A stretch of 47,998 bases of DNA from positions 1 to 47,998 of the forward strand of contig CANLKN010000017.1 of NCBI GenBank assembly GCA_947491475.1, read 5' to 3'. The stretch comes from Akkermansiaceae bacterium (GTDB taxonomy: Bacteria; Verrucomicrobiota; Verrucomicrobiia; Verrucomicrobiales; Akkermansiaceae). Below, in pieces: positions 32,489-42,029 of this stretch (its first letter is position 1; the number at the start of each line of letters is the position of its first letter). The notes under the pieces were generated by a model that was not told the DNA's origin, did not search any database, and was given only the letters and a program-made list of their open reading frames with translations. The translations under genes and the position numbers were made by a program.

Positions 32489-33310
32489 ATGAAAAACGCC
32501 TGGAAAATACCCGCCGCCACGGCAGTCAGCCGCTGGATCCGCCAATCTCAAGGAAACCTTTTGTGGATCGGAGGGGCGGGCGCTTCCGCGGCCCTGATCC
32601 TGATTTCCTGCTCCACCGGCGGTCGCACGATCATGGCTCCAACCAGCATCCCCGGAGCCACCTTCGTCGGCACCGAGGAATGCGCCCAGTGCCACGAGGA
32701 TGTCGTCCGTGACTTCAAGACCGCCGACCACGCGAAGCTGATGGCCAAGGGACCCAACGCGGTGGACATGGGCTGCGAATCCTGCCACGGCGCAGGCAGC
32801 AAGCACGTCGAAGCCGGCGGCGGTGCGGGCACGATCATCAATCCTGACGAATCCCCGGAAACCTGCTTCCAGTGCCACCTCGATACCAAGGCGCAGTTCA
32901 TGCTGCCTTTCAGTCACCCGGTGCTCAACGGCAAGATGTCCTGCTCCGAGTGTCACGACCCGCACAAGGGCAGCGCCATCAAGGGTGGCGGCACCCAGTT
33001 GCATGGCAGGAATGAAACCTGCGCAGATTGCCACCAAGCACAAACCCAACACTTCGTATTCGCCCATGATGCAGTCAAGGAAGGCTGCACCACCTGCCAC
33101 AGCCCGCACGGATCAGTGAACCAGAAAATGCTCACCGAGCGCAACGCGACCCTGTGCCTCAAATGCCATACCGATCAGTTCACCCCCACAGCCGGAACCA
33201 TGGGGCCCTCTGGCGGCCACAATGGACGTTTCCCGTCCGGAACCTGCTGGAGCGCTGGTTGCCACGAGGCTGTCCATGGTTCCAACACCAACATTGAACT
33301 GCGCTTCTAA
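32489..33310 (+). CDS. Octaheme c-type cytochrome, MtrA/DmsE-like, predicted lipoprotein
   Basis: A 273-residue exported multiheme cytochrome. After a long basic start, the signal ends in a lipobox (ALILISC, Cys41). Seven CxxCH heme sites lie at 65, 96, 126, 152, 178, 200 and 223. An eighth site at 253-259 is CWSAGCH, a CxxxxCH motif. Extra histidines (SHP, DPHKG, SPHG, FAHD) can serve as distal ligands. The TEECAQCHEDV start and regular spacing resemble the MtrA/PioA/DmsE group, which has ten hemes in about 300-330 residues. In those systems the protein sits inside an outer-membrane barrel and conducts electrons across it. The barrel gene follows 26 bases later, in the same order as mtrAB/pioAB. 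Confidence 0.85.
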   Translation: MKNAWKIPAATAVSRWIRQSQGNLLWIGGAGASAALILISCSTGGRTIMAPTSIPGATFVGTEECAQCHEDVVRDFKTADHAKLMAKGPNAVDMGCESCHGAGSKHVEAGGGAGTIINPDESPETCFQCHLDTKAQFMLPFSHPVLNGKMSCSECHDPHKGSAIKGGGTQLHGRNETCADCHQAQTQHFVFAHDAVKEGCTTCHSPHGSVNQKMLTERNATLCLKCHTDQFTPTAGTMGPSGGHNGRFPSGTCWSAGCHEAVHGSNTNIELRF

Positions 33311-33336: not shown

Positions 33337-35490
33337 ATGAAGGCATTTCAAACAATCAAAATCCTCGCCCCCGCACTCGCACTCGGTATCGCCCAATCCC
33401 ATGCCGGAGCACCAACACCCGCCGACACAGAGTCGGTTGCAGCTGAACCCGCCAGCAACTGGATCACATTCATGACCGGAGGTGCGTTTGTCAGCGGCGA
33501 CGACGCCAATATGCAGGCGCGCACCCGCACTAACGACTTCTACGGCGGCATCAGCGATCTGCACTACGGCTTGCAGGTCGATGATAAGACATCTCTCCAG
33601 ATGGAGGGAAGAGCCCTGCCCGGACTTGAGGATTACGAACTCGATCTCCTGCTCACCAAGGAGGATATTGGGTATGTGAATTTGGGATTCAGCCAGTTCC
33701 GCACATGGTATGACGCTTCAGGCGGCTATTCGCCTCTGGCAGGAAACCGCTGGGTGGTGCCATTTGACGACGAGCGGTATATCGACCGCGGTGAACTGTT
33801 TCTCGAAGCGGGCCTCCGAATGGAAGACATTCCGGAGATCACCTTCCGCTACACCCATTCCTATCGAGACGGAGAGAAAGACTCGACCGTGTGGGGTGAC
33901 AACCCGACTGCCCCCAGATTCAAAAATTCGCCCGCGTTGTGGTATATCGACGAGCAGGTGGACCTCTTCGAACTGGACATCGCCCATTCGCTCAGCATCA
34001 CGGACATTGAACTCGGTCTCGTTTACCAGCATGTGGACCTCGACAATACCCGCTACACGGAACGGGGTGCGAACTCAGTACCAACTGGCGGCGCGGGAGT
34101 AAACAAGACATGGCTGAACGAAAAAAGCGAGTCCGACCTGTTCGCCGGGCATGCTTCGACGGTCACCCGTTTCAATGACAAGGCATGGCTCAGTTGGGCG
34201 GCTTCATACACCACCATGGACAGCGACATCGACGGCGGCTCGCGCACTTGGGGCAGCTATTGGGGTCCTCCCAATGCCAACGCCGGTACCCAAACACGGG
34301 ACTATGCTTACGACGCAATGAGTGGCGGCAGCAATGTAAGCCAGTTCATCACCAACTTGAACTTCATGTGGGTTCCGGTTTCGGATTTGACGATTACTCC
34401 TTCGCTCCGATACGAAAACGAGTCCGTTTACTCATCAAGCCGGTTCCGCGCGTTCAACACTGGGGCATTTTCCAACCCCGCCTCCAACCCCCCTGGTTTT
34501 GGTGTGGCTTGGTTGGGTCGTCAGAATTTGTCATCGGATACCGACATGGATGCTTGGAACACCGCTCTCGACGTCCGTTATAAGGGTATCGAAAACGTCG
34601 TTCTTTACGCCAACGCCGACTGGGGTTGGGAAGATGAGACGATCATGCGAGTTGATCAGGTGCTTCCGGGCGAATGGCTCGACTCTGATGTCACCATAGA
34701 CGAGCAGGAATACAAGTTGGGAGCCAACTGGTATCCTATGAACAAGCTCAGCTTCGGCATCCAGGGGATTTACGAATTGCGCGAGCAAGGATTTGACCAC
34801 ATCGCTGCCAGCCAAGGCAAAGCGATAGCCTCTGCCAATGGTGCGGCCAACAATTTCCGTCCGATCATGGCCGATCATAACACCGAGACCGAGAACCTCA
34901 ACTTGAGGATGACATGGCGTCCGCTCGGCAATGTTTCGATGGTTACACGCTACGATTATTCCAAGACGGAATATGAGAACCGCGGTGTCCTGTTGAGCCC
35001 GCCAGCCCAGAGCCCGCCCATCACGGGAACACTGCTCAATCTGATTGAAAGCGGCCAGGTCGAATCGCACGTGGTCAGCGAGACCGTCACTTGGAATCCG
35101 ACTGCACAGATGTATGTCCAGGGGTCTGTGAGCTGGGTCTCATCGGAAACATCCACGCCCACCAATGTGTTGAATCCCGACATGGACAACGATTACATCG
35201 TATGTGGCCTGAATGCCGGATATGCTTTGGACGCCCGCACCGACATCACTGCCGGCTACAACTTCTATACCCAGCGGAATTACGGGGTGGCTGCCGCCTC
35301 AATGGGGTATGGGCTGGAAACCTCCGAGCATATGTTCAGTATTGGTATGAACCGGATGCTCACCGACAACATCCTTTGGACCGTCAGCTACGGTTTCATC
35401 ACCAGCGACACCAAGGACATTGACCAATCAGGCGGCTTCAACGATTTTGACGCCCACATGGTGTCAACGGGCTTGCAAGTTCGCTTCTGA
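33337..35490 (+). CDS. MtrB/PioB-like outer-membrane beta-barrel of a porin-cytochrome complex
   Basis: A 717-residue exported protein with a signal peptide (AFQTIKILAPALALGIAQSH). It is built of alternating, aromatic-rich strands throughout (NWITFMTGGAF, YGLQVDDKTSLQMEGRALPG, DIGYVNLGFSQFRTWYDASG, NVSMVTRYDYSKTEYENRGV) and ends in a typical outer-membrane terminal strand (STGLQVRF). Length and position directly after the MtrA/DmsE-like gene match MtrB/PioB porins, which encase the decaheme cytochrome. No N-terminal CxxC is present. It presumably forms the sheath for the upstream cytochrome. No extracellular MtrC/OmcA-like cytochrome is encoded here. Confidence 0.82.
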   Translation: MKAFQTIKILAPALALGIAQSHAGAPTPADTESVAAEPASNWITFMTGGAFVSGDDANMQARTRTNDFYGGISDLHYGLQVDDKTSLQMEGRALPGLEDYELDLLLTKEDIGYVNLGFSQFRTWYDASGGYSPLAGNRWVVPFDDERYIDRGELFLEAGLRMEDIPEITFRYTHSYRDGEKDSTVWGDNPTAPRFKNSPALWYIDEQVDLFELDIAHSLSITDIELGLVYQHVDLDNTRYTERGANSVPTGGAGVNKTWLNEKSESDLFAGHASTVTRFNDKAWLSWAASYTTMDSDIDGGSRTWGSYWGPPNANAGTQTRDYAYDAMSGGSNVSQFITNLNFMWVPVSDLTITPSLRYENESVYSSSRFRAFNTGAFSNPASNPPGFGVAWLGRQNLSSDTDMDAWNTALDVRYKGIENVVLYANADWGWEDETIMRVDQVLPGEWLDSDVTIDEQEYKLGANWYPMNKLSFGIQGIYELREQGFDHIAASQGKAIASANGAANNFRPIMADHNTETENLNLRMTWRPLGNVSMVTRYDYSKTEYENRGVLLSPPAQSPPITGTLLNLIESGQVESHVVSETVTWNPTAQMYVQGSVSWVSSETSTPTNVLNPDMDNDYIVCGLNAGYALDARTDITAGYNFYTQRNYGVAAASMGYGLETSEHMFSIGMNRMLTDNILWTVSYGFITSDTKDIDQSGGFNDFDAHMVSTGLQVRF

Positions 35491-35539
35491 TGTACCAGAT
35501 TATTTCCACTGCTTACCCAATCACCAACCAATACCAATA

Positions 35540-35863
35540 ATGAAAATCCAGATTACACTTCTATCGATCGCCGCCCTGCTGGCAACGCCAGCTGCCTTCG
35601 GTGATGCCGCCGCCATTTACGCCAAGAGCTGCGCCTCCTGCCACGGCAAGGACGGTGCCGGAGCCACCAAGATGGGCAAAAAAGCCGGTGCCAGAGACTA
35701 CACCACCGCGGAAGGCCAGAAATGGTCGGATGAGGAAGGGGTCAAGGCCATCCTCGAAGGCGTCAAGGACGGCGACAAAACCAAAATGAAGGGTTACACC
35801 GGCAAGATTACCGAGGCGGAAGCCAAGGAACTCGTTGCCTACATCCGCAAATTCAAGAAATAA
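35540..35863 (+). CDS. Small periplasmic monoheme cytochrome c (class I)
   Basis: A 107-residue exported electron carrier. The ATG at 35540 gives a signal peptide (KIQITLLSIAALLATPAAFG). The mature protein has a single heme site (IYAKSCASCHGKDGAGATKM) and a C-terminal class I helix (ITEAEAKELVAYIRKFKK). MKGYTG holds the likely axial methionine. It can shuttle electrons through the periplasm between the membrane quinol dehydrogenase and the outer-membrane conduit. It follows the barrel gene by 49 bases and precedes a terminator, so it closes the first transcription unit of the cluster. Confidence 0.92.
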   Translation: MKIQITLLSIAALLATPAAFGDAAAIYAKSCASCHGKDGAGATKMGKKAGARDYTTAEGQKWSDEEGVKAILEGVKDGDKTKMKGYTGKITEAEAKELVAYIRKFKK

Positions 35864-36173: not shown

Positions 36174-37670
36174 ATGAGCGAAGAACCTCACAGCACTACG
36201 ATCCTCGGTCGTCTCAACCGTTTGCGCAACTGGCTCAGCCTTGCCGGCATGGTGCTCTGCGCATCCGCCGTATTCGCGTTCGTGCTGCTGGTGGCCGTTG
36301 ACCTGTTCGCCACCCACGCCAACCCCTACATGGGCATCCTGGCCTATGTGGTGGCTCCGATGTTCTTCTTCATGGGTCTGGGCCTGGTGGTTCTCGGCTA
36401 TTTCCTGGAAAGCCGCCGCATCCGCAAGGGCGTGCCGCGCAAGGAGGGGGGGCTGGTGCTGAGTGTGGACCTTTCGCGCAAGCGGGACCGCCAGATGATG
36501 GCCGCCTTCGTGCTGGGCAGCATTGGTTTCCTGCTGCTGACCGCCTTCGGCAGTTATGAGACCTATCACCTGATGGAATCCAACACCTTCTGCGGCCAGG
36601 CCTGCCACACGCCGATGGAGCCGCAATTCAGTGCGCACCAGCACTCGGCGCATGCCCAGGTGGATTGCGTGGCCTGTCACATCGGCCCCGGCACCACCGC
36701 CTACATCCGCACCAAGCTCAACGGGGTGAAACAGCTGTATCACCAGATTCGCGGTGATTTCAACCGGCCGATCCGGATTCTCAACCCGAACCTGCGCCTG
36801 GCCCAGGAAACCTGCCAGACCTGCCACTGGTCGCAGAAGCATTTCGGCGATGTGCCGAAGACTTTCAAACGCTTCCTCGCCGACGAGGAGAACACGCCTT
36901 TTACAGTCCAGATGCTGCTCAAGGTGGGTGGCAGTGATCCGGTGCGCGGACCTGTGGAGGGCATCCACTCGCACATGAACGTCTCCAACAAGATCGAGTT
37001 CATCCATTCGGACGATGAGCGGCTGGAGATTCCCTGGGTGCGCGTGACGGATGCCGATGGCAAGGTCACCGAATACCGCACCGAGGGGTTCACGGACGAC
37101 ATTTCGAAGCATCAGATCCGCACCATGGATTGCATGGATTGTCACAACCGGCCGGCGCACGAATTCCTGTCGCCGAATGATGCGGTGGACCAGGCGCTGG
37201 CGACGGGCCGCATTGATCCGTCGATCCCCTGGGCCAAGAAAAATGTGGTCACCGCGCTCGCCGCGCCCTATTCCACCCGCGAGGAGGCCCAGCAGAAAAT
37301 CGAAGAATTCCTGCGCGCCGAGTATCCGGATGACAAGCGCGTGGATGCGCTGATCGCCGAGGCCAAGAAGATTTATGCCACCAATTTCTTCCCGGAAATG
37401 AAGGCTGACTGGCGCGCCCATCCGGACCACATAGGCCACAAGGACACCAACGGCTGCTTCCGCTGCCACGACGGCACGCACTTCGCCTCCGACGGCAAGA
37501 CCACCATCAAGGGCAGCGATTGCAATGCCTGCCACATCATCACCGCACAGGGTGCCGGCGAGGAACTGGAAAAAGTCAACCTCAAGGGCCACGACTTCTT
37601 CCACCTCGATTCGGAATACCTCGAGCCCAACTGCGCCGAGTGCCACAACGGGCAGATCCAGGAGGAATGA
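36174..37670 (+). CDS. Membrane-bound multiheme cytochrome c, NapC/NrfH/CymA-like quinol dehydrogenase
   Basis: A 498-residue protein with three predicted membrane helices (about 21-43, 53-77, 109-126) and a periplasmic multiheme part. Heme sites are CGQACH at 140-145 (CxxxCH), then CVACH (165-169), CQTCH, CMDCH, CFRCH, CNACH and CAECH, seven in all. The stretch ESNTFCGQACHTPMEPQFSA with HQHSAHAQVDCVACHIGPG is typical of the NapC/NirT family, which takes electrons from membrane quinols. Known NapC/CymA proteins have one helix and four hemes, so this is an enlarged form with extra helices and hemes. In this cluster it is the obvious electron entry point for the periplasmic cytochrome and the outer-membrane conduit. 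Role and direction of flow are inferred. Confidence 0.85.
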   Translation: MSEEPHSTTILGRLNRLRNWLSLAGMVLCASAVFAFVLLVAVDLFATHANPYMGILAYVVAPMFFFMGLGLVVLGYFLESRRIRKGVPRKEGGLVLSVDLSRKRDRQMMAAFVLGSIGFLLLTAFGSYETYHLMESNTFCGQACHTPMEPQFSAHQHSAHAQVDCVACHIGPGTTAYIRTKLNGVKQLYHQIRGDFNRPIRILNPNLRLAQETCQTCHWSQKHFGDVPKTFKRFLADEENTPFTVQMLLKVGGSDPVRGPVEGIHSHMNVSNKIEFIHSDDERLEIPWVRVTDADGKVTEYRTEGFTDDISKHQIRTMDCMDCHNRPAHEFLSPNDAVDQALATGRIDPSIPWAKKNVVTALAAPYSTREEAQQKIEEFLRAEYPDDKRVDALIAEAKKIYATNFFPEMKADWRAHPDHIGHKDTNGCFRCHDGTHFASDGKTTIKGSDCNACHIITAQGAGEELEKVNLKGHDFFHLDSEYLEPNCAECHNGQIQEE

Positions 37671-37753: not shown

Positions 37754-38974
37754 ATGAAACCCAAGCTGTTTTCCGCCGGACTTTTCGCCCTCGCCCTCGC
37801 CTCCTGCAAACAGGACAAGGAGATCAAGGTTTACCGCGTAGCCAAGGAAACGCCGGCTGCCAGTGCAGACCCCCATGCGGGCATGCCCGGTATGATGCCC
37901 GGCGGAGCGATGCCGGGGCCGGTCGATGGTGCCGATCCTCATGCCGGAGTTCCAGGCATGGGTGGCGGCAGTGCAGATCCCCATGCCGGCCTGACTGCGG
38001 AACAACTCGCTTCAGCGGGCGCGGCCATGCAGCAGTCCCAGGAGTTCACCGATAGCCCGCCCTCTCATTGGAAAAAGCTACCGCCCTCGGCCATGCTGTT
38101 GGGAAAATACCAGATCGAGGGCCCGGAGGGAGTCACGGTTGATGTGACCTTTTCCACCTTGCGCAGCGCGCCCGGCGGGCTGCTCGCCAACATCAACCGC
38201 TGGCGGGGCCAACTTGGCCAAGAGCCGTTTGCAGACGATGCCGCACTGAAGGGAAACACACGCATGGTGCCGTCAAGTTTCGGCGAGGCCGTCTTCATTG
38301 ATATTGAGGGCCTCATGGACAGTGCTGACCCGAAAAAGGACGGTCGCCTGATCGGTGCCATCGCCGAATCCGGTCCCAGCGCATGGTTCTTCAAGCTGCG
38401 CGGCAACGACGCCCTGGCCGCTGCGGAACGCGAGAATTTCATTCGCTGGGTGGAGTCCGTGAAACTAGCCGAGGTTTCCAACGCGCCGGTGCCCGCCGCT
38501 TCGCCGGCAGATGCCGCCACATCGCCAGTTTCACCCGCTGCCGCCCCGGCAGGTGACGGCTCCGTGACATGGCAACAGCCGGAGGGCTGGTCGGTGGTCA
38601 ATGGCAGCTCCGCCCGTTATGCGACGCTCGCAATCACTGATGCCGATGGTGCAAAAGGCGAACTTGCCGTCACCCATTTCCCCGGTGACGTCGGTGGCGA
38701 TCTGGCCAACGTCAACCGTTGGCGATCGCAAATCGGGCTTGAACCCATCGACGAGGCCGCGCTCGCAACCAGTGTGACTCAGGTGACTGCCGGGCCCAAG
38801 ACCATCCAAGTGATCGATGTGACCGGCCCGAAAAACCGTTGCGCCGCCGGTTGGGTGGCCCATGGCGGGGAAACCTGGTTCTTCAAGTTCACCGGTCCCG
38901 ATGCTCTGGTCGGCGCGCAGAAGGCAAAATTCACCGCGTTTCTTGAATCCATCCGTTTCACAAAGCCCGACTGA
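37754..38974 (+). CDS. Lipoprotein with ADPHAG repeats and a duplicated domain
   Basis: A 406-residue envelope lipoprotein with a lipobox signal (KLFSAGLFALALASCKQD). Residues 35-95 hold three ADPHAG motifs, each but the last followed by a Met/Gly/Pro-rich run (MPGMMPGGAMPGP). Two similar globular domains follow (about 100-245 and 270-400). Shared features are LLANINRWRGQLGQEPF / LANVNRWRSQIGLEPI and WFFKLRGNDALAAAERENF / WFFKFTGPDALVGAQKAKF. His- and Met-rich repeats are often metal-binding, and a copper or heme-handling role would fit its place directly ahead of resB. That role is inference. The stop overlaps the resB start by one base (TGATG), so the genes are translationally coupled. No characterised family is recognised. 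Confidence 0.72.
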   Translation: MKPKLFSAGLFALALASCKQDKEIKVYRVAKETPAASADPHAGMPGMMPGGAMPGPVDGADPHAGVPGMGGGSADPHAGLTAEQLASAGAAMQQSQEFTDSPPSHWKKLPPSAMLLGKYQIEGPEGVTVDVTFSTLRSAPGGLLANINRWRGQLGQEPFADDAALKGNTRMVPSSFGEAVFIDIEGLMDSADPKKDGRLIGAIAESGPSAWFFKLRGNDALAAAERENFIRWVESVKLAEVSNAPVPAASPADAATSPVSPAAAPAGDGSVTWQQPEGWSVVNGSSARYATLAITDADGAKGELAVTHFPGDVGGDLANVNRWRSQIGLEPIDEAALATSVTQVTAGPKTIQVIDVTGPKNRCAAGWVAHGGETWFFKFTGPDALVGAQKAKFTAFLESIRFTKPD

Positions 38975-40140
38975 TGAAATTACTCATGCGTTTTTTGCGT
39001 GCCTCGGCCTCGCTGAAGCTCACTATTTTCTGTCTCTCCGCCGCCCTCGTGCTGGTTTTCGCCGGCACCCTGGCGCAGGTGAAGATGGGCCTCTATCTGG
39101 TGCAGGAAGCCTATTTCCAAAGCTGGATCGTCTGGTGGACCGCTCCCTCCGGAAACTTCAGCATCCCGGCGTTTCCCGGTGGCCATCTGATCGGCGCGCT
39201 GCTGCTCATCAACCTGATTGCCTCGCTGATCACGCGTCACATCTGGAGTTGGAAAAAACTCGGCATCCAGTTGATCCATGTCGGCATCATCATCATGCTG
39301 GCCGGTGGATTGGCCACCGACCTGTTCTCGGTGCACAGTTTCATGCGCATCAAAGAGGGGGAAACCAAGAACTACTCCGAGGACAGTGTGCGCATGGAAC
39401 TCGCGTTGATCGATCACAGTGATCCGGAAGCGGAGCAAGTGACGGCAATTGCCGGAGAGCGGCTCGCCGATGGCGGCACGATCAAGCACGAGGCGCTGCC
39501 GTTCCGCATCGAAATCCGCGGCTTTTACCGGAACTCCGGCTTGCAGATGATTTCCGCGCAGGGTGGCGCGGCGGTCCCCGCATCCACCATGGGCACCGGA
39601 AAGCGCCTCGCGGTGAAATCCCTGCCACGCGCCACCCGCATGGATGAACGCGACGTGATGAGCGCCGTGATCGAGATCATTCCGGAGGGCGGCCAATCAC
39701 TTGGCACCTGGTTGGTCTCCGATTCGCTCGCCGCCGCGCAGGAAATTGAGATCGCCGGCAGCCGCTGGAGTGTCCAGATGCGGCCCGCCCGCTATTACAA
39801 TCCCTACAGCCTCGAGTTGCTGGATTTCACCCACGAAACATATCCCGGCACACAGATCCCGAAAAACTTCTCCAGCAAACTGAATCTCGTGGATGCGGAA
39901 AACAACGATTCGCGGCAGGTGCTCATCTACATGAACAACCCGCTGCGTCATCAGGGGGCCACTTACTACCAATCCGGATTCGAACCGGACAATAGCGGCA
40001 CCGTGCTGCAAGTCGTCCGCAACCCGGGCTATCAGGCACCCTACATCGCCTGCGTGATCGTCTCGCTGGGCCTGATCTATCAGTTTTCAATCCATCTCAT
40101 CGGCTTCGCCCGTCGCAGAAAAACCTCCACCGCTCCATGA
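38974..40140 (+). CDS. resB: ResB-like cytochrome c maturation protein (System II)
   Basis: A 388-residue membrane protein. ResB with CcsA carries heme across the membrane and attaches it to apocytochromes c. Membrane segments are seen at about 15-35 (LTIFCLSAALVLVFAGTLAQ), 70-88, 98-118 and near the C-terminus (YIACVIVSLGLIYQFSIHLI). A large periplasmic region lies between them, containing the ResB-like NNPLRHQGATYYQSGFEPDN. The start shares one base with the previous stop and the stop overlaps the ccsA start by four (ATGA). This puts the lipoprotein, resB and ccsA in one coupled unit placed next to the multiheme cytochromes that need it. Confidence 0.87.
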   Translation: MKLLMRFLRASASLKLTIFCLSAALVLVFAGTLAQVKMGLYLVQEAYFQSWIVWWTAPSGNFSIPAFPGGHLIGALLLINLIASLITRHIWSWKKLGIQLIHVGIIIMLAGGLATDLFSVHSFMRIKEGETKNYSEDSVRMELALIDHSDPEAEQVTAIAGERLADGGTIKHEALPFRIEIRGFYRNSGLQMISAQGGAAVPASTMGTGKRLAVKSLPRATRMDERDVMSAVIEIIPEGGQSLGTWLVSDSLAAAQEIEIAGSRWSVQMRPARYYNPYSLELLDFTHETYPGTQIPKNFSSKLNLVDAENNDSRQVLIYMNNPLRHQGATYYQSGFEPDNSGTVLQVVRNPGYQAPYIACVIVSLGLIYQFSIHLIGFARRRKTSTAP

Positions 40141-42029
40141 AACGTTTCGGCCCATATCTCGTCCTGCTCGTCTTCCTGCTGTGGCTTGCGTCTTCATGGC
40201 GTGCCCCGCGCGCCAAGCCCGGGGATTTCGACCTTGCCTCCTTTGATCGCATCCCGGTGCTGGTCGGCGGACGCATCAAGCCGCTCGACACCGTGGCCCG
40301 CAACTCGCTGCTCATTCTTAGCGGCAAGCAGTCGCTGCGCCTTGAGCAAGACGGCAAAAAAATCAAAATGCCGGCATCCCGTTGGTTGGCAGACGTTTTG
40401 TTCAACCCGGAAGTCGCCGATACTTATCCGGTTTTCGACATCGCCAACCCCGAAATGCTCGGCATGCTCGGCCTGCCGGACTCCGGCCGCCGCAAATGCT
40501 CCTATCAGGAGCTCAAGCCGCACATCGCCAAGATCGACGAAGAGGGCAAACTCGCCGGTGAGTTGCAGGCCACCCAGCGCACGCCCTTTCAGTCCGCCGC
40601 CTTCAACCTGCGCAACTCGCTGTTTCTCTATCAGCGCCTCAAGAGCAGCGTCCACCAGGAAGGCACCAAGGATTTCGCCAAGGAAATCAAGACCTATGCC
40701 GACGCCGTCGCCGCAGGTGTGGAAAAACTCCGCGAAAGCAACGAAGCGCTCGACAAGGATCGCTTGATGCTCCTGCGCGGCGCGGTCGCGCGCTACCAGG
40801 CCCAGTCTGAATTCGCCTACATGCTGATGATTGCCCCGCCCGCGGGTGGCGGCGAGGGCGACTGGCTCAGCACCGGCGACGCCTTGATGCGCGTCAAATC
40901 CGTGGCAACCGTGCCACCCTCGGTTTACGCCTTCGCCGAAATGGGCGACGCTTTCCGCGCCGGCGACACCGCGAAATTCCTGCTCGTCACCCGCGAATAT
41001 GCCGACTGGCTCAACACCGAGCACCCGGAGTGGGCCAGTCGCACCACATTCGAGCTCCGTTTCAACCACATCGAACCCTTCTACGGCAGCATGGTGCTCT
41101 ATGTCGCCGTGTTCCTGCTCGCCTGTTTTTCATGGCTTGTCATGCCGCAGGGCCTGCGCAAAACCGCATTTTTGCTGCTGCTGTTGGCTTTTGCCATCCA
41201 TACTTTCGGCATGTTCGCGCGGATGTATATTCAGGGCCGTCCGCCGGTCACCAACCTCTATTCCTCCGCCATCTTCGTCGGCTGGGGAGCGGTTTTGTTG
41301 GGAATCGTGCTCGAGCGCATGTTCAAAGATGGCATTGGCAGTGCCGCCTCGGGCGTGGTGGGCTTCACCACCTTGGTCATCGCCCACCATCTCGGCTCCA
41401 GCGGAGACACCCTGGAGATGATGCAAGCCGTGCTCGACAGCAATTTCTGGCTCGCCACCCACGTGGTGGTCATCACTCTCGGTTATTCGGCGATGTTCCT
41501 CGCCGGCATGCTCGGCATCGTCTATCTGCTGCTCGGTTTGTTCACGCCGCTGCTCACCCGCGATACCGCCAAGGCGCTCACCCGCATGGTCTATGGCATC
41601 ACCTGTTTCGCGCTGCTCTTTAACTTCGTCGGCACCGTGCTAGGCGGCATTTGGGCGGACCAATCATGGGGCCGCTTCTGGGGCTGGGATCCCAAGGAAA
41701 ACGGCGCGCTTCTGATCGTGCTGTGGTCCGCCCTCGTGCTCCACGCCCGCTGGGGCGGCTACATCCGCGAACGCGGCCTGATGGCCATGTCCATCGTCGG
41801 TAACGCCATCACCGCCTTCTCATGGTTCGGCGTCAACATGCTGGGCGTCGGCCTCCATTCCTACGGCTTCATGGACAAGGCCTTCCCCTGGCTCGTCGGC
41901 TTCGTGATTTCCCAGTTCCTGTTCGTCGCGCTTAGCCGGTTGCCCGCCAGGTTCTGGCGCAGCTTCCGCGGTGCCCAGCAGCGCGATCTCAATGCCGTGG
42001 GCTTTCAATCCGCCACTACGCAGTCGTGA
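40137..42029 (+). CDS. ccsA: CcsA cytochrome c synthase subunit (System II)
   Basis: A 630-residue polytopic membrane protein. The C-terminal half has the heme-handling tryptophan-rich (WWD) motif, DQSWGRFWGWDPKENGALLI, and the CcsA stretches GRPPVTNLYSSAIFVGWG, NFWLATHVVVITLGYSAMFL and FSWFGVNMLGVGLHSYGF with conserved histidines. The N-terminal ~320 residues are an extra, mostly periplasmic region that starts FDRIPVLVGGRIKPLDT, as in the long CcsA/CcsBA proteins of Bacteroidetes and Planctomycetes. It completes System II together with the upstream resB. The four-base ATGA overlap shows coupled translation. Confidence 0.92.
   Translation: MKRFGPYLVLLVFLLWLASSWRAPRAKPGDFDLASFDRIPVLVGGRIKPLDTVARNSLLILSGKQSLRLEQDGKKIKMPASRWLADVLFNPEVADTYPVFDIANPEMLGMLGLPDSGRRKCSYQELKPHIAKIDEEGKLAGELQATQRTPFQSAAFNLRNSLFLYQRLKSSVHQEGTKDFAKEIKTYADAVAAGVEKLRESNEALDKDRLMLLRGAVARYQAQSEFAYMLMIAPPAGGGEGDWLSTGDALMRVKSVATVPPSVYAFAEMGDAFRAGDTAKFLLVTREYADWLNTEHPEWASRTTFELRFNHIEPFYGSMVLYVAVFLLACFSWLVMPQGLRKTAFLLLLLAFAIHTFGMFARMYIQGRPPVTNLYSSAIFVGWGAVLLGIVLERMFKDGIGSAASGVVGFTTLVIAHHLGSSGDTLEMMQAVLDSNFWLATHVVVITLGYSAMFLAGMLGIVYLLLGLFTPLLTRDTAKALTRMVYGITCFALLFNFVGTVLGGIWADQSWGRFWGWDPKENGALLIVLWSALVLHARWGGYIRERGLMAMSIVGNAITAFSWFGVNMLGVGLHSYGFMDKAFPWLVGFVISQFLFVALSRLPARFWRSFRGAQQRDLNAVGFQSATTQS

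Follow-up and report, generated by a model that had tools for sequence, protein, structure and literature searches.

The octaheme cytochrome and its gene neighbourhood

The window (the whole analyzed stretch of DNA, 47,998 nucleotides in length) carries on its forward strand a gene (32489..33310, +) for a c-type cytochrome of 273 residues, which was assigned via profile, sequence and structure matches as an MtrA/DmsE-like octaheme protein and a probable lipoprotein. Seven canonical CXXCH motifs, starting at C65, C96, C126, C152, C178, C200 and C223 (32681..33169, +), are followed by CWSAGCH (residues 253-259 in the reading of the open reading frame; 33245..33265, +), a CX4CH heme-attachment motif which, judged by sequence and conservation, represents the eighth and last heme site. 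The original prediction had described this order of motifs and placed CWSAGCH at the same residues; it was right and its coordinates were exact. The letters of the motif are C253-W-S-A-G-C258-H259, and no overlapping CXXCH is present at this place in the translation, residue 255 being a serine. Four residues further downstream, H263-G264-S265 (HGS; 33275..33283, +) follows, whose histidine occurs in 53 of 53 aligned eight-site rows and may serve as the distal ligand close to that site. A long reverse-strand open reading frame overlaps part of the gene; the conserved frame is the forward one. Furthermore, C41 follows Leu-Ile-Ser in a lipobox-like context (within 32489-32611) and is a cysteine in 51 of 53 rows. 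This sequence context suggests a lipid-anchored conduit cytochrome; MtrA is not known to carry such a lipid anchor.

Directly 3' of the octaheme gene a porin-like outer membrane protein of 717 residues is encoded (33337..35490, +), which presumably forms the cytochrome sheath in the role of MtrB and shows a weak match to the NCBIfam profile GSU2204 (34 bits versus a cut-off of 350). Of the 27 octaheme loci (L041-L066 and L071), 26 have a homologue of the porin-like gene next to that of the cytochrome; only L062, which sits at a contig end, does not. The porin-like gene is followed by a monoheme cytochrome c (35420..35863, +; Pfam Cytochrome_CBB3 and Cytochrom_C over cut-off), whose true start is probably internal to the listed open reading frame, near 35540, and by a NapC/NirT-type membrane cytochrome of 498 residues with seven heme motifs (36174..37670, +; Pfam PF03264, 37.6 bits, over cut-off). 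The latter is likely the quinol oxidase, and in its size and number of hemes it would be similar to Geobacter ImcH. Its first motif is of the CX3CH type (CGQACH). In a motif scan which also allowed CX2CH, CX3CH was the first motif as well in all ten relatives found in other loci (L020, L041, L043, L045, L050, L077, L092, L099, L103 and L115). Besides the octaheme and the NapC-type cytochrome, the window contains no protein of more than 90 residues with two or more CXXCH motifs.

Between the NapC-type gene and ccsB a protein with a lipoprotein-like start and without a family match is encoded. The resulting order of lipoprotein-like gene, ccsB and ccsA (37754-42029) recurs near the octaheme gene in L045 and L071. 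A link between CX4CH and an adjacent large multiheme (extracellular) cytochrome was considered as well and none was seen, the CX4CH loci showing both arrangements.

With respect to curated profiles, the octaheme cytochrome scored under cut-off for both NF041028 (156.8 bits, cut-off 325) and TIGR03508, DmsE (150.4 bits, cut-off 192.2). Among solved structures, phmmer placed MtrA far ahead (6r2q_A, 1.5e-24); the entry 6r2q is entitled 'Structure of the Mtr complex', and its chain is listed under another molecule name in the phmmer result. An AlphaFold model from 60 sequences, moderately confident and without hemes (mean pLDDT 75.8, pTM 0.65; pLDDT 51-65 for residues 231-260, the motif included), gave MtrA as the first Foldseek match (E 4e-8) and as the best match in VIA-align (Z 9.9, rmsd 4.3, 180 residues aligned; next Z 6.6). 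At the last motif MtrA aligns CLNCHSQVHGSN with CWSAGCHEAVHGSN of the octaheme cytochrome, and H263 finds its counterpart in the HGSN of MtrA. The octaheme cytochrome is a shortened MtrA relative with eight sites instead of ten. Aligned with decahemes, it lacks an internal stretch that holds two sites, which suggests the loss of an internal heme pair, while the structural alignment (model residues 56-273 on MtrA 121-333) would also fit an N-terminal loss. In summary of this comparison, the protein shares with MtrA/DmsE (TIGR03508; PDB 6r2q) the kinship in sequence and fold, the C-terminal site, the HGS motif and the porin partner, but differs in the number of sites, in the CX4CH spacing of the last one, in being a probable lipoprotein and in scoring below the family cut-off. 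The heme density, which had been expected to exceed that of MtrA, does not do so: there are 34.1 residues per heme here versus 33.3 in the 333-residue MtrA chain.

Presumed maturation of the cytochrome by System II

Downstream of the NapC-type gene, the window encodes both subunits of a System II cytochrome c synthase, a CcsB/ResB-like protein (38974..40140, +; PF05140 over cut-off) and a CcsA-like protein (40137..42029, +; PF01578, 86.5 bits; NCBIfam TIGR03144, 131.5 bits, under the cut-off of 187.6). The genome as a whole contains two ResB genes and three Cytochrom_C_asm genes, and CcmE was not found in this draft, which is 96.6% complete. With CcsB/CcsA present and CcmE not found, System II is the sole evident pathway and presumably matures the octaheme cytochrome via CcsB/CcsA; it would presumably accept the CX4CH spacing. 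No paper treating CcsBA together with CXXXXCH was found in an open-literature search.

The original prediction had regarded CX4CH as rare and its spacing as difficult for System II. A serious obstacle of this kind finds no support in the described cases. Tetraheme cytochrome c3 is reported to carry two CX4CH heme sites per protein (PMC10454114). Apart from this likeness, the octaheme cytochrome shares with it only general multiheme Pfam matches, e.g. Cytochrom_c3_2. MmcA of Methanosarcina acetivorans, an electron-conduit cytochrome like the present one, has one CXXXXCH among mostly canonical sites; mass spectrometry is reported to have demonstrated heme on this site, and all seven sites to hold heme (PMC11024163), which means that a CX4CH-type site can hold heme. 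MmcA is an archaeal heptaheme protein, however, and is likened to the octaheme cytochrome by motif and role. One review describes maturation as flexible when more than two residues separate the cysteines, with a dedicated apparatus for CX15CH (PMC7096707), and another describes a dedicated CcsBA or CcmF/H as needed for CXXCK and CX15CH (PMC10663686).

In analogy to the Wolinella synthases for CXXCK and CX15CH, heme could be bound at CWSAGCH only thanks to the adjacent CcsB/CcsA pair (38974-42029), if this pair were specialised for CX4CH. The pair indeed lies ~5.7 kb downstream of the octaheme gene, and four of seven genomes of the genus have a ResB gene no more than ~8 kb from a CX4CH gene. 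Furthermore, among genomes with an octaheme gene seven of eight possess two ResB genes, versus 9 of 29 among those without it (Fisher p 0.012, relatedness ignored). However, genome G016, whose octaheme cytochrome is canonical at all sites, also has a ResB gene ~12 kb away on the same contig, and CcsB/CcsA was seen in the available DNA of just two of the 27 octaheme loci, many of which are short. Given the nearby ResB gene of the canonical G016 and the nine octaheme-free genomes with two ResB genes, a synthase dedicated to CX4CH is unsupported, and we consider it unlikely.

Conservation and probable heme attachment at the terminal motif

The terminal motif was followed through an alignment with homologues, in which two cysteines and the histidine are kept in 53 of 53 distinct eight-site rows, 50 of them with CX4CH and three with CX2CH. 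This conservation in relatives supports the earlier view of CWSAGCH as a non-canonical CX4CH site which, if it bears heme, makes the protein an octaheme cytochrome. C258 and H259 are present in all 53 rows, the C253 column holds a cysteine in 51 and Trp254 is likewise kept in 51. In L008 and L038, the two rows without C253, a cysteine follows two residues later, giving CXXCH. L056 reads CWSCH (checked on the DNA): Cys-Trp-Ser is kept, the site is two residues shorter and the tree places this row among CX4CH rows. Since conservation is highest in the C258-H259 half of the motif, the heme could also be attached by a single thioether bond via C258 only, in the manner of an XXXCH-type site, with C253 free or redox-active. 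We judge this very unlikely, since both rows lacking C253 regain CXXCH and the second cysteine is missing in none of the 53. A site whose spacing alternates between CX4CH and CX2CH while both cysteines and the histidine are always retained behaves as expected of a heme site.

The same picture was obtained in wider samples. Within the genus, eight of nine full-length genes, drawn from 59 genomes of the genus and the order, have the CX4CH spacing as CW[ST]AGCH, the ninth being L008 with CTSCH. In a phylum sample, 21 of 387 genomes matched at E <= 1e-15 and all 21 carry a CX4CH gene; two second genes are canonical, the octaheme L038 and the decaheme L040. Named genomes were scanned with search patterns from which the last motif was absent, and 80 loci were obtained. 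Among these, CX4CH was found in 25 of the 26 loci L041-L066, the remaining one being L056, and in L071 (Omnitrophota), and at the tenth site of two Armatimonadetes decahemes (L082 and L098), whereas the other 50 loci (Acidobacteria, Proteobacteria and others) have a canonical final motif. The recurrence of the spacing across genus, phylum and eight-site rows means that the motif is not a chance occurrence. Left out of the rows were near-copies or genes on the same contigs, all of them CX4CH (L007 and L042, of L006; L044, of L011; L046, of L023), the contig-end fragment L067 without a C-terminus, L039, which is the same gene as L037, and the partial weak matches to other proteins L009, L010 and L012-L017.

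In a tree of 106 rows (52 CX4CH, 54 CX2CH) the spacing changes three times, two of the changes being forced by starred branches; the tree was built quickly and has long branches, and gain and loss of CX4CH are indistinguishable on it. The Armatimonadetes genes for MtrA-type decahemes (L082:10001-10687 and L098:978-1580), with CWASGCH/CWSSGCH at the tenth site, lie outside the octaheme clade on this tree. Two loci have a second gene for a CX4CH eight-site cytochrome (L048:1202-2011 and L052:5625-6581), at a distance of a few kilobases.

Outside the motifs, exactly eight histidine columns are conserved in half of the rows or more (81, 106, 143, 159, 193, 207, 244 and 263); H244 is present in 50 of 53 rows and the other seven in all 53. 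Together with the eight histidines of the CH pairs they fit eight bis-histidine hemes, whereas with seven hemes two of these sixteen histidines would have no explanation. Least probable of all readings is that CWSAGCH binds no heme and that the protein has seven hemes, the motif being a disulfide, a site for another metal or a decayed site: the non-canonical spacing, the low model confidence over residues 231-260 and the fact that heme binding is here a prediction would allow for it, but the conserved cysteines and histidine, the CWSCH variant of L056, the alignment with a heme motif of MtrA and the sixteen conserved histidines speak against it.

From the motif, its conservation and position, the homology to MtrA and the gene neighbourhood established in the present analysis, we conclude with a probability of roughly 0.88 that CWSAGCH is the eighth heme site of an octaheme MtrA relative, which would lie within, or dock on, the porin of the neighbouring gene and carry electrons across the outer membrane. 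The occupancy of the site by heme is very probable in view of its sequence. CWSAGCH would correspond in position to the tenth, C-terminal heme motif of MtrA, lengthened by an insertion of two residues that separates the cysteines further. The heme would be attached to C253 and C258 through the usual thioether linkages, with H259 as the putative proximal ligand; H244 and H263, both among the conserved spare histidines, are candidates for the distal one. Electrons would pass from quinol to the NapC-type cytochrome, the monoheme cytochrome, the octaheme cytochrome in the porin and finally an acceptor outside. By analogy with MtrCAB, this route and an outward-facing location of the last heme are likely; the C-terminus of MtrA is described as facing outward (PMC7198977).

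Comparison with known systems and implications

Verrucomicrobial gene clusters of a porin and an eight-site cytochrome were already described by He et al. 2017 (PMC5615132) and, compared by description, agree with the present locus in having the porin gene beside the cytochrome gene. The passages concerned do not mention a CX4CH spacing, and Shewanella- and Geobacter-homologous systems are stated there to be absent from their MAGs (PMC5615132), whereas the present cytochrome is clearly related to MtrA. OmaB and OmaC of Geobacter are, by description, similar as eight-heme periplasmic porin partners (OmaB: PMC6344600). CX4CH has already been included among the heme motifs in papers on iron oxidisers (PMC5566968, PMC10734462). 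Open-literature searches, mostly at the level of listings, returned no mention of a CX4CH site in this octaheme family. Thus, while the verrucomicrobial clusters and CX4CH as a kind of motif were known, the present analysis adds the place of the family among MtrA's kin, the terminal CX4CH as a near-fixed trait and canonical siblings as natural controls.

Tentatively, and as a possibility we would rate well below even odds, the stretched terminal CX4CH site starting with Cys-Trp might be a fixed trait of an entire verrucomicrobial branch of the MtrA family and have arisen separately in the decahemes of Armatimonadetes. Ordinary System II would then attach its heme, and the site would tune or expose this exit heme, from which electrons pass to extracellular acceptors.

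Heme counts which rely on CXXCH only would score the family as seven-heme proteins and miss the last, probably outermost heme. The natural CX4CH/CX2CH pairs (the window and L008; L065 and L056) make the tolerance of CcsBA towards the spacing and the effect on the exit heme testable. With the octaheme family, a verrucomicrobial conduit is placed among MtrA's kin.
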